A stretch of DNA of 64,000 nucleotides from Bacteroidota bacterium (GTDB lineage: Bacteria > Bacteroidota > Bacteroidia > B-17B0 > Aurantibacillaceae): contig JAUXZS010000024.1 in assembly GCA_030692515.1 (NCBI GenBank), positions 248,001 through 312,000 on the forward strand, in the 5' to 3' direction. The notes under the pieces are model-generated. The model saw only the letters and a program-made list of their open reading frames with translations, was not told where the DNA came from and did not search any database. Shown in pieces: positions 36,313 to 56,763 of the stretch. Position numbers and translations under genes: made by a program. The first letter of the stretch is position 1. Every line of letters starts with the position of its first letter.

Positions 36313-36465
36313 AATAATTTTCTATTCAAACAAGATAATGGGATACATAATTATAATAAACGAACAGTAAAAATAAATTACTTACTAACTGAGACAATAA
36401 TGAAATGAATTAGTCGGTAAGGTATTATCTGAACTAAAGCTATATTTACTATTTTTCTTTAAGCT

Positions 36466-36684
36466 TCATATCCGCAACCTTTCTCTTCGCTTAAATCTAT
36501 TTTCAGAAACATTTATCGAAAATTTAGGGTTAAAAACACCCTGTGTCTTTTCAGTTAAACGAAAATCATTCTCCGAAAATTTAAAAATAATTTTACGAAT
36601 GCCTTTAATCTGTGTTTCACTAAGACTATACTTCGTTAAAACGATTTCACCATTTTGTTTAATAAATAATTGAGTTTTTTTCAT
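36466..36684 (-). CDS. Hypothetical small basic protein
   Basis: 72 aa, rich in Lys, Arg and Phe (RKIIFKFSENDFRLTEKTQGVFNPKFSI, then KRRERLRI). No membrane segment or known domain. It is separated from the efflux operon by about 150 bases. It could be a short real gene or a chance frame. Confidence 0.4.
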   Translation of the reverse strand: MKKTQLFIKQNGEIVLTKYSLSETQIKGIRKIIFKFSENDFRLTEKTQGVFNPKFSINVSENRFKRRERLRI

Positions 36685-53037: not shown

Positions 53038-54281
53038 TTAATTTTTTTTTGATTTGCAGAATACGATTTATAAACAGCTTCGTACATAAGATTCCCTAAT
53101 AACACATAACCTTTAGGCGAAAAATGAACCCTGTCTTTCCCTGCCAAACCAGCTTTTTGCCATTTCATCATAGATTTGTAGCCACCCATTAATGAAAACA
53201 AATCCCAAACTGCGATATTATGCTTTTCCATTAATTCAAACATTGCGTCTTTTGCTATGATTGTTTTTTTATTAGATGTTTTTCTTTTTATAAAATTATC
53301 GGTGGTGGTTGTTAAGATAATAGCAGCATCGGGATTTGCTTTTTTAATTACCATTATTAAACTGTCATAGTTTTCAATATACTCTTCCTTCGCAAAATTA
53401 CTAGCTTGTGTGTCATTCACGCCTAACGACATTATAACTAAATCGGGTCCAAGGCTTGTAAACTGAGAAGTAAGATCGCCACACTTTAAAAAAGAGCCAC
53501 TAGCTGCTCCATTCGCACCTAATCCTGCAAAATAAAAACCTGGCTGCAAATTATTATCCAAACTAAAACCAAATAATATAAAATCTTGATGAAGGGAATC
53601 TTTTCTTACTAGTTTAAAATTAATTGAGTCTATAGGTAATTCAAAGTCAAATAATGTATAACCAAATTCTTTAAAATCTTTTCTTATTGGAATATAATTA
53701 TGGATGCTATCCACAGCAAATTCAAAGCCATCTGTAAAATTATGATAGACTTTAATAGAGTTAAAACTTTTGCAAATTGCTTTTTTTGTTAAGGCTACAC
53801 CAAAGTTTGTTGCGCTGTCGTGATAAGAAACGCTAAGCGCACACATTCCAAGCGGAACACAATAATCTTTTCCAATAGCCCTAAATCTTTTCCATTTTCC
53901 ATCTGAAAATGTTGTAGCAAATGGTTGTCCATTTGTTTTTGCAATTTTATAGGGAAATACAAAATACCCGCCACCGGTAGTTTTAAATTCGGATTGAAAA
54001 TTATTTACAAAGGTAGTGCTCCATGTACCAGCTTGTACGTGGGAGCCTCCAAAATGGACAACGCCAACTTTATTTGAATTTTTTAACTTTAAATCATTCA
54101 TTTTTTTATATAATTTCAAGAAGCTACTGCTGTCTTTCGAAAAATATAAATGGTTATATTCCATATTCATAAAAGGATATGGATTAATTTTTTCCTGTGA
54201 ATTTATTTTAATGAATACACCTAAACATAAATAGGCAAGTAAATTAATCTTTAAATATTTTATAAATCTTCTCTCTCTCAT
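53034..54281 (-). CDS. SGNH/GDSL-type protein, O-acylation cluster (first motif altered)
   Basis: 415 aa with a signal peptide or anchor (residues 8-29). Block I reads VVHFGGSHVQAGTW, with Gly in place of the Asp of GDS but the Ser kept. Block III GVNDTQ and final block DRVHFSPKGY (D, H) are present. Such proteins transfer acetyl groups to polysaccharides with MBOAT partners (AlgJ/X-like). Overlaps the upstream SGNH gene by four bases (ATGA) and the MBOAT start downstream. Confidence 0.8.
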   Translation of the reverse strand: MRERRFIKYLKINLLAYLCLGVFIKINSQEKINPYPFMNMEYNHLYFSKDSSSFLKLYKKMNDLKLKNSNKVGVVHFGGSHVQAGTWSTTFVNNFQSEFKTTGGGYFVFPYKIAKTNGQPFATTFSDGKWKRFRAIGKDYCVPLGMCALSVSYHDSATNFGVALTKKAICKSFNSIKVYHNFTDGFEFAVDSIHNYIPIRKDFKEFGYTLFDFELPIDSINFKLVRKDSLHQDFILFGFSLDNNLQPGFYFAGLGANGAASGSFLKCGDLTSQFTSLGPDLVIMSLGVNDTQASNFAKEEYIENYDSLIMVIKKANPDAAIILTTTTDNFIKRKTSNKKTIIAKDAMFELMEKHNIAVWDLFSLMGGYKSMMKWQKAGLAGKDRVHFSPKGYVLLGNLMYEAVYKSYSANQKKIN

Positions 54282-55729
54282 TTTTTGCTTTTTAAATACG
54301 AATTATAATCATTAATTAATGCTGAATACAATAATGTTGCCATCTTTCTAGCACCCTGTGGACTAAAATGGATATAATCAGTTGCAGCTAATTTTTGGTC
54401 GACCCAAACCGGCATGCTATTTTTTCCACCCATACAATCGTACATATCAAAAAATGCACAACCACTTTCCAACACTACACGTTTTATCTCATTACGTGTA
54501 GTTTCTAATAAAGGATAGGTTTCATACTCTGTGCCATTTTTTACACTCATGTCAGCAGGACCAATAAATAATATACTGGCATTAGGCGCTGCTTTCTTTA
54601 TAATAGAAATTTGAGAACGTAAATAACTTGCATAATTCGCACTCATTTTTTCATCTTTAATGGATGGTGTTGCATTACCACCAAATTGCAGAATAATTAA
54701 TTTTACGTTCAAATAATCGTAAAATTGTTTTAATTGTCCGTTATTTATTTGATGAAAAAAAGTTCCGCTACTGCCTCTTAATGCAATATTATCTACCAAC
54801 ACTCCTGTTTCGCTTTCCAAAGAAACTGCATAAAAATCAGGGCTATCTTTTCCAGTAAACTTTAACTGGTGAGTATTAGAACCATTTCCAACATTATATT
54901 CTTTTATTCTAAATGAACCTCCCTCATCAAGACTATCAGCAGCAATTAAAGCAGGGCCATCATAAAACTCACACCATGTTTTAGTTTGCGCACCTCCATA
55001 AAATAATTTTAATTTTTTATAGGCTAATGCGTTTGAGCCTCCTAATTTAGTTGTTGTAATGGTTATACTAGATGTAACCAATGAACTGGAGTCGTTTACC
55101 TTTTTATAATTACTAAACCGGTTAAAACTGGCTAGTACACCGTAATTACTATGCGGTACACGTTTATCCTTACTTGTAAAAACATTATATCTGTCCCAAC
55201 CCGGGCCTATGTTAATTTTATTTATTACACTGGGAGCAATTGGCATTAATGAAATTAATCCAGGTCCATGGCCTCCAAACTGACCTTGTAATTTTAAACG
55301 CAAATAGTCTGTAATCCTATCCCCTTCAATCTGGCTATCTCCATAATGAAGCACGCGAATTGCTTTTGGATTTGTTTTTAATTCGGTTAAAGCATTGAAG
55401 AAATTGTGTAAAGCAGATTTATTTGTTGTTTGTATGCTCGTGATTAATTTTACAGTTGAATCTTTTTCAGTTTTATTTAGAGTTGTTGCAGTTGGAGCTG
55501 CTAACGTATCGTTGATTGCAAAAGTGGTATCAATCTCATTTAGAGAGCTAATTATTTTAGAAACTTCTTTTTCTTTTGTTTTTTCCTCAAACAATGTATT
55601 AAAACTCGGAAATTCTAATTTTAAGCTAGAGGAAATAATTATACCATCCTTTGGAAAAGTAAAACTTAAAAGTCCAAGCACTAAAAAAATAAGAATTACA
55701 AAGATTAAACTTTGTTGTGGTTTATGCAT
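54278..55729 (-). CDS. SGNH/GDSL-type protein, O-acylation cluster
   Basis: 483 aa. A membrane helix at residues 8-25 (LIFVILIFLVLGLLSFTF) is followed by a linker and an SGNH domain: block I VLHYGDSQIEGDRITDY (full GDS), block III QFGGNA, final block TDYIHFSPQGARKM (D and H). It is the first gene of the four-gene cluster. It is probably the periplasmic transferase that accepts acyl groups from MBOAT. Substrate not predictable. Confidence 0.8.
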   Translation of the reverse strand: MHKPQQSLIFVILIFLVLGLLSFTFPKDGIIISSSLKLEFPSFNTLFEEKTKEKEVSKIISSLNEIDTTFAINDTLAAPTATTLNKTEKDSTVKLITSIQTTNKSALHNFFNALTELKTNPKAIRVLHYGDSQIEGDRITDYLRLKLQGQFGGHGPGLISLMPIAPSVINKINIGPGWDRYNVFTSKDKRVPHSNYGVLASFNRFSNYKKVNDSSSLVTSSITITTTKLGGSNALAYKKLKLFYGGAQTKTWCEFYDGPALIAADSLDEGGSFRIKEYNVGNGSNTHQLKFTGKDSPDFYAVSLESETGVLVDNIALRGSSGTFFHQINNGQLKQFYDYLNVKLIILQFGGNATPSIKDEKMSANYASYLRSQISIIKKAAPNASILFIGPADMSVKNGTEYETYPLLETTRNEIKRVVLESGCAFFDMYDCMGGKNSMPVWVDQKLAATDYIHFSPQGARKMATLLYSALINDYNSYLKSKK

Positions 55730-55795
55730 GTCCTAAATATACCAAAGTGATAAAAACATTCATAAAACTAAAAAAAAGAGTTGTTCACAAACGAT

Positions 55796-55829
55796 TTTGA
55801 ATAATTATTTAGATTAAAAACTACCTTTG
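55796..55829 (+). promoter_or_regulatory. Consensus Bacteroidota promoter of miaA
   Basis: TTTG at 55796-55799 (-33 box) and TACCTTTG at 55822-55829 (-7 box, matching TAnnTTTG exactly) are 22 bases apart. The predicted start of transcription is at about 55834, which coincides with the first possible miaA codon, so the mRNA may be leaderless. Confidence 0.7.
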
Positions 55830-55833
55830 TGTT

Positions 55834-56763
55834 ATCCAATTAAGTGAAAATAAATATTTAATAGTAATTACCGGCCCAACAGCAGTAGGTAAAACAGCAA
55901 TAGCAATTAACTTAGCAAAGATATACGATACAGTTATACTTTCGGCAGATTCAAGGCAGTTTTATAAAGAATTAACGATAGGAACTGCAAAACCAACAAA
56001 TGAAGAACTGTCTGCCGTAAAACATTATTTTATTAACACCAAAAGCATTTCTGAATTATATGGTGCTGGCCATTTTGAAAAAGATGCTTTAGCAACATTA
56101 AATGAGTTATTTAAAACAAAAAATATTGTTTTTTTAGTTGGTGGTTCTGGTTTATATATAAATGCTCTGATAAATGGCGTAGATGATTTTATTGAAGTGC
56201 CAATTGAAATTAGAGATGAGTTAAATAAAAAATTTGAATTAAATGGATTAGAGTGGCTACAAAATGAAGTTAAGACACTAGATGAAACTTATTTCAATTC
56301 TGTAGACACTCATAATCCCCAACGCTTAATCAGAGCGCTGGAGGTTTGCCAATACACAGGTAAACCCTATTCTTCCTTTTTAAATCAACCAAAAGCAGAA
56401 CGTAATTTTAAAGTCATAAAAATTTTAATTAACACCAATAGAGAACAACTTTATTCTCAAATAAATAATCGTGTAGATAAAATGATGGCGAGCGGTTTAC
56501 TAGAAGAGGTAAAACAACTCGCTAATCAAAAACATTTAAACGCTTTAAAAACTGTGGGCTACAAAGAACTTTATGCTTATTTAGACGCGAGTTACAATTT
56601 AAATACAGCAATAGACAAAATAAAACAACACAGCCGCAACTACGCCAAAAGGCAATTAACCTGGTTTAAAAATCAAGACAAATTTGAGGAATTTGAACCC
56701 ACTGAACTTGAAAAAATTCAAAGCTATATTAATTCTATAGTTTTAAAGAACAATGGCAACTAA
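55834..56763 (+). CDS. miaA: tRNA dimethylallyltransferase MiaA with non-ATG start (ATC)
   Basis: 309 aa if translation starts at ATC 55834. Walker A GPTAVGKT at residues 14-21, 'SADSRQFYKELTIGTAKP' and 'VGGSGLYINALINGV' are MiaA signatures, with 'PQRLIRALEVCQYTGKP' further on. MiaA adds a dimethylallyl group to A37 of tRNAs reading UNN codons. The frame between the in-frame stop at 55810 and the Walker motif has no ATG, GTG or TTG. Using the in-frame ATG near 56197 would delete the whole ATP-binding part. The end overlaps the converging gene by 21 bases. Confidence 0.9.
   Translation: MQLSENKYLIVITGPTAVGKTAIAINLAKIYDTVILSADSRQFYKELTIGTAKPTNEELSAVKHYFINTKSISELYGAGHFEKDALATLNELFKTKNIVFLVGGSGLYINALINGVDDFIEVPIEIRDELNKKFELNGLEWLQNEVKTLDETYFNSVDTHNPQRLIRALEVCQYTGKPYSSFLNQPKAERNFKVIKILINTNREQLYSQINNRVDKMMASGLLEEVKQLANQKHLNALKTVGYKELYAYLDASYNLNTAIDKIKQHSRNYAKRQLTWFKNQDKFEEFEPTELEKIQSYINSIVLKNNGN

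Follow-up and report, generated by a model that had tools for sequence, protein, structure and literature searches.

A probably leaderless miaA mRNA with a proposed AUC or AUU start codon in a genus of Bacteroidota

IF3 discriminates against AUU as a start codon and autoregulates infC, and the Shine-Dalgarno sequence is rarely used in Bacteroidota, a phylum in which most such sequences have been given up. Leaderless mRNAs, whose promoters place +1 on the start codon, are described in mycobacteria (PMC4633059) and in Bacteroidota (PMC9723704, PMC7366714). They are a minority in the phylum, with 5.5% of mRNAs reported as leaderless in Flavobacterium psychrophilum (PMC9723704) and about 3.7% of 5' UTRs shorter than 10 nt in B. 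thetaiotaomicron (PMC7366714). In the M. smegmatis tests reported in PMC4633059, leaderless initiation occurred at ATG and GTG only, ATC being the presumed negative control; in leadered constructs ATT was substantially enriched and ATC was slightly above background. Leaderless translation has been said, citing E. coli work, to appear AUG-dependent, in a paper that gives one of 61,358 ancestral AUG starts as switched to AUU (PMC5622118).

The miaA gene described here lies in a window of 64,000 nucleotides, the whole stretch of DNA that was analysed. Its mRNA would, if translated as we propose, work like other leaderless mRNAs, but with AUC, or AUU in relatives, as the 5'-terminal codon, where the M. 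smegmatis leaderless mRNAs in the reported tests began with AUG or GUG. Reporter tests have led to the rule that leaderless initiation needs AUG in E. coli and AUG or GUG in mycobacteria, a rule that would be broken by a housekeeping gene in which AUC or AUU recurs at the predicted 5' end. If the proposal is right, the ribosomes of these Bacteroidota take codons at a leaderless 5' end that mycobacterial ribosomes did not take in reporter tests, and miaA is a natural test case for the requirements of leaderless starts, in a phylum mostly without Shine-Dalgarno sequences. Titles and abstract openings in the open-licence literature yielded no leaderless gene starting with AUC or AUU, which is weak evidence of novelty, and we found no report there of a miaA with an AUU start codon.

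The miaA frame and its promoter

The frame from 55813 to the stop at 56761-56763 encodes a complete MiaA; the first-pass annotation had named the gene miaA. It matches TIGR00174 at 270.7 bits (cut-off 148.65, NCBIfam profile search) and IPPT in Pfam, and its P-loop, the Walker A motif GPTAVGKT, is intact. The protein shares its family and domain layout with canonical MiaA and differs only in the start codon and the 5' end. Taken from the ATC, it aligns with the solved MiaA structures (six distinct sequences) from residue 7-10 onwards.

After the TAG stop at 55810-55812 the frame reads ATT AAA AAC TAC CTT TGT GTT ATC CAA and continues to the Walker A motif. The same annotation had claimed that no ATG, GTG or TTG lies in this stretch and that automatic annotation would begin at 56197, losing the ATP-binding domain. 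Both points hold: the first in-frame canonical codon is the GTG at 56197, where the open reading frame listing starts a protein that lacks the P-loop. Gene callers limited to ATG, GTG and TTG would lose this part of MiaA in such genomes. Over 117 codons from Walker A, dN/dS was 0.06-0.12 against eight of the ten genomes compared (G012, G019, G006, G021, G035, G007, G026 and G030); synonymous sites were saturated in the other two comparisons (G029, G022). The ten codons 5' of Walker A are under weak constraint, with dN/dS, calculated from few sites, of 0.14-0.94 in nine comparisons and 0 in one. The low ratios over the 117 codons indicate that the stretch upstream of the first canonical codon is translated and under purifying selection.

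Exactly 4 nt separate the end of the -7 box TACCTTTG from the ATC. The -7 box of F. psychrophilum is described at positions -12 to -5 (PMC9723704), and the same geometry at miaA would put +1 on the A of the ATC, so that the mRNA would be essentially without a leader. The promoter is thus placed as in leaderless mRNAs, and this spacing recurs in the genus, but the codon it points to is ATC, or ATT and ATC in relatives, and not ATG or GTG. No Shine-Dalgarno sequence (GGAGG) precedes the ATC; the -7 box fills that place. The left boundary given in the first-pass annotation, 55796, is the start of the TTTG, and its interval covered promoter and gene together.

We consider it probable that a conserved leaderless mRNA with an AUC or AUU start carries miaA, and that the complete protein is made from a 5'-terminal AUC. 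Transcription would begin from the sigma-A type -7 box, with +1 at, or within about one base of, the A at 55834. The ribosome with IF2 and the initiator tRNA would then initiate on the AUC, the initiator tRNA presumably decoding it, to give fMet-Gln-Leu-Ser-Glu-Asn-Lys-Tyr-Leu and the rest of MiaA. In more of the relatives AUU would take the place of AUC. Expression of miaA may well be low or regulated.

Table 1. Features of the miaA region, with infC of the same genome (positions in the window unless a locus is named)
Feature	Position	Strand	Basis or remark
miaA, tRNA (adenosine(37)-N6)-dimethylallyltransferase, 309 aa + stop	55834..56763	+	TIGR00174, IPPT, PDB homologues
Shortened 188-aa ORF, expected from a canonical-start gene caller	56197..56763	+	ORF listing; P-loop absent
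Putative -33 element TTTG	55796..55799	+	22 nt before -7 box; consensus as given in PMC7366714
-7 box TACCTTTG (TAnnTTTG)	55822..55829	+	Sequence and relatives
Predicted +1 (A, 55834) and putative miaA start codon ATC	55834..55836	+	4 nt after box; ATT/ATC likewise placed in relatives
Conserved intergenic element AAAGAGTTGTTCACAA-N4-TTTTGAATAATTATT, ~35 bp	55775..55809		Between divergent GDSL and miaA genes; overlaps miaA -33 region
Divergent GDSL-type lipase/acylhydrolase gene	54278..55729	-	Leaderless geometry too: TATATTTA + GGAC + ATG, 4 nt
infC	L197 984-1634	-	AUC with strong Shine-Dalgarno

miaA start codons in the genus and beyond

We compared 40 genomes of the genus, this one (G000) included, and could read the miaA start in 34. 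The rows left out had no miaA match (G005, G023, G033), a paralogue only (G020, G032) or a gene cut by a contig end (G062). To count as usable, a canonical start had to be 4-25 codons from Walker A on its 5' side and could not precede the -7 box. By this measure a usable canonical start is missing from 18 genes, and the others start with ATG (7) or with GTG or TTG (9); the ATG class includes G025, whose gene sits on a very long branch and is perhaps not orthologous. Ten of the 34 (G000, G012, G007, G026, G036, G029, G002, G022, G004, G011) lack ATG, GTG and TTG altogether in the interval from the stop to Walker A. Four public records (L033-L036) have start regions identical to those of G019, G021, G035 and G007, and are therefore probably the same genomes.

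Twelve of the 18 non-canonical genes have an in-frame codon 4-6 nt after a TAnnTTTN box that is either ATC (G000, G007, G026, G036) or ATT (G019, G021, G035, G029, G022, G001, G010, G011). In G006 and G030 a GTT stands 4 nt and an ATT 7 nt after the box. The box of G012, TACCATTA, is imperfect and goes with an ATC, and G018 has a box with no AUY close by, only ATA. The same placement is found in genes with canonical starts, which follow the box by 4-5 nt in G016, G015 and G061 (ATG), G014 (TTG) and G009 (GTG); in G017 and G003 the box is followed by an ATT, at 5 and 4 nt, and the first or second codon after this ATT is TTG or ATG. In the sampled genome 27% of the codons for isoleucine are ATA and 9.5% are ATC, but the box-proximal codon is ATA in none of the 12 genes and ATC in four. 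The nearest eight genomes differ from this one at 58-73% of synonymous sites. In this eight-genome clade the codon 13 before Walker A is ATC or ATT in seven, the remaining one having GTT and then ATT, while codons 14, 12, 11 and 10 are variable. This recurrence of AUY after the -7 box supports the ATC start put forward in the first-pass annotation, and the promoter geometry lends comparative support to its view that the mRNA is probably leaderless.

An AUY start could also be real on an mRNA with a short or ordinary leader made from another start site. This would suit the minority share of leaderless mRNAs in the phylum, as given in the two studies above, and the miaA genes of G002 and G004, which have no recognisable box near the start. 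Against it, the box stands 4-6 nt before ATT or ATC in 14 of 32 genus miaA genes and before ATG, GTG or TTG in four more; for the whole set of 18, counted at 3-6 nt, 1000 shuffles, which ignore relatedness, averaged 0.35 and never exceeded 4. We regard such a leader as unlikely, though it deserves more weight than the readings that follow.

Another near-cognate codon might be used in place of the ATC, such as the ATT at 55813, which directly follows the stop in this genome, or an ATA inside the first strand. The ATT lies before the box, however, and starting further downstream would remove part of the region where the solved homologues begin to align. In four relatives (G007, G036, G029, G022) the -7 box begins with the very TAA that serves as the in-frame stop, which makes an upstream start impossible there, and in G012 a single GGC lies between stop and ATC. 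Translation must thus begin in these genomes within the few codons that hold the ATC or ATT, and a different near-cognate start has little chance of being correct.

A frameshift from an out-of-frame canonical codon was considered and rejected, as such a codon is absent in most cases: over the 31 nt that lie 43 to 13 nt ahead of Walker A, 15 of the 18 genes have no ATG, GTG or TTG, whatever the frame. The exceptions are G000, with an out-of-frame GTG, G006 and G030.

The gene might also be a pseudogene, or encode only the 188-aa protein from GTG 56197, since the genome has a second MiaA family gene (G000:C25:34377-35204; L196 14377-15204, minus strand; TIGR00174 195.2 bits, 33% identical). The strong purifying selection upstream of 56197 and the intact Walker A motif speak against this, the shortened form would lack the P-loop, and we rejected the pseudogene on dN/dS; the chance that either form is right is slimmer still. 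The paralogue is present in most genus genomes, and of the 35 distinct genes read 34 begin with a canonical codon (18 ATG, 16 GTG or TTG) and one, L354 in G011, has neither (rows L369 and L370 repeat L140 and L143).

An ATG misread as ATC, the error that the first-pass annotation had warned of, is the least probable reading and very unlikely even in a window from a 68-contig assembly, because 17 other genus genomes also lack a usable canonical start, among them G001, a single 4.6-Mb contig, and 11 of the 17 have ATT or ATC 4-6 nt after the -7 box.

The probable leaderless AUY start does not follow the miaA phylogeny closely. On a tree of 32 miaA genes with few well-supported branches, start-codon class was unclustered, with nine changes (the minimum number of non-AUG changes) against a shuffled mean of 10.7 and a value as low in 101 of 500 shuffles. 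The trait is thus labile within the genus.

Outside the genus, the same 4-25 codon interval held ATG in 51 of 67 other Bacteroidota loci (L046-L112), only GTG or TTG in 14, and neither in two. Among 22 class genomes read (L115-L136, with G044 left out) a canonical start was found in 21 and none in one (L127). As canonical starts prevail in both samples, the non-canonical miaA start is mostly a trait of this genus. The miaA genes with no canonical start near the expected place were those of Hyunsoonleella pacifica (L062), a Spirosoma fluviale MAG (L075) and the class genome G059 (L127).

infC, control genes and IF3

We read coaE, gmk, cmk and infC in the 30 loci returned for each, which are fewer than all genomes; the motif was not matched in the coaE row L236 or the cmk row L303, and neither was counted. 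A further intended control family, dTMP kinase, gave only matches under the cut-off and was not used. The start is ATG in 29 of 29 coaE and 30 of 30 gmk genes, and canonical in 29 of 29 cmk genes (ATG 13, GTG or TTG 16). The box lies 3-6 nt before the start in 28/30 gmk, 25/29 cmk and 1/29 coaE. In gmk the distance to ATG or GTG is 3-4 nt in the 28, mostly 3 nt, and in cmk the distance to ATG, GTG or TTG is 4-5 nt in the 25. By this geometry cmk (L288-L317), in which GTG is frequent, and gmk (L258-L287) look leaderless throughout the genus. If gmk is leaderless, +1 does not lie exactly 4 nt after the box at every promoter. A leaderless layout thus appears usual for some genes of the genus, and the oddity of miaA is its AUY codon.

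A scan of 347 kb, about 8% of this genome, covered 313 non-overlapping frames of at least 80 codons and is blind to non-canonical starts soon followed by an internal ATG, GTG or TTG. In three frames the first canonical start came after 50 or more codons: miaA (128), infC (61) and a 90-codon frame in the window at 36404-36673 on the plus strand (65), which may be non-coding. The only comparable known gene in the scan is infC, in which an ATC follows GCGGAGG and a canonical start is missing. Across the genus, GGAGG is followed after 2-12 nt by an in-frame ATC or ATT in 30 of 31 infC genes read (19 ATC, 11 ATT, three of the latter with ATC directly next), and 24 of the 31 have no canonical codon between the stop and the anchor motif. 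The exception is L153 (infC loci L153-L182), an additional infC gene of G002 that starts with ATG. The absence of a canonical start and the recurring AUY are common to miaA and infC, both AUC in this genome, but infC is leadered with a Shine-Dalgarno sequence, whereas miaA has none and, by its geometry, no leader.

A higher IF2/IF3 ratio is reported to favour leaderless mRNAs (PMC10783764). Together with the discrimination of IF3 against AUU, this suggests that MiaA synthesis may be weak and perhaps IF3-sensitive; control of miaA by IF3 is speculation. It is a tentative and rather doubtful extension that miaA and infC form an AUY-started pair sensed by IF3 in this genus, on ribosomes that accept AUC or AUU at a leaderless 5' end. 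If this were so, both IF3 and tRNA A37 modification would go up whenever IF3 is in short supply relative to ribosomes.

The conserved block upstream of miaA

Of 32 genus loci, 20 have the intergenic element of Table 1 upstream of miaA, 19 of them recognised by pattern and G012 by eye, with partial look-alikes in G015 and G024 counted as absent. A search of 55600-56000 against Rfam gave no RNA match at E up to 1. GC skew, from sparse samples of G001 and the window, showed no turn at miaA that would indicate a replication origin, and tracked gene strand. The 16-mer of the block has one exact copy in the genome and 10 places with at most two mismatches, against six for a reversed control. Its distance to the -7 box varies by clade, from TTTG to box 22 nt here and 29 nt in G029, so the block is more than a -33 box. 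Lying between two divergent leaderless-type promoters, it is perhaps a site for a shared regulator. A usable canonical miaA start is missing in 15 of the 20 genomes with the block and in 3 of the 12 without it, a comparison uncorrected for relatedness.
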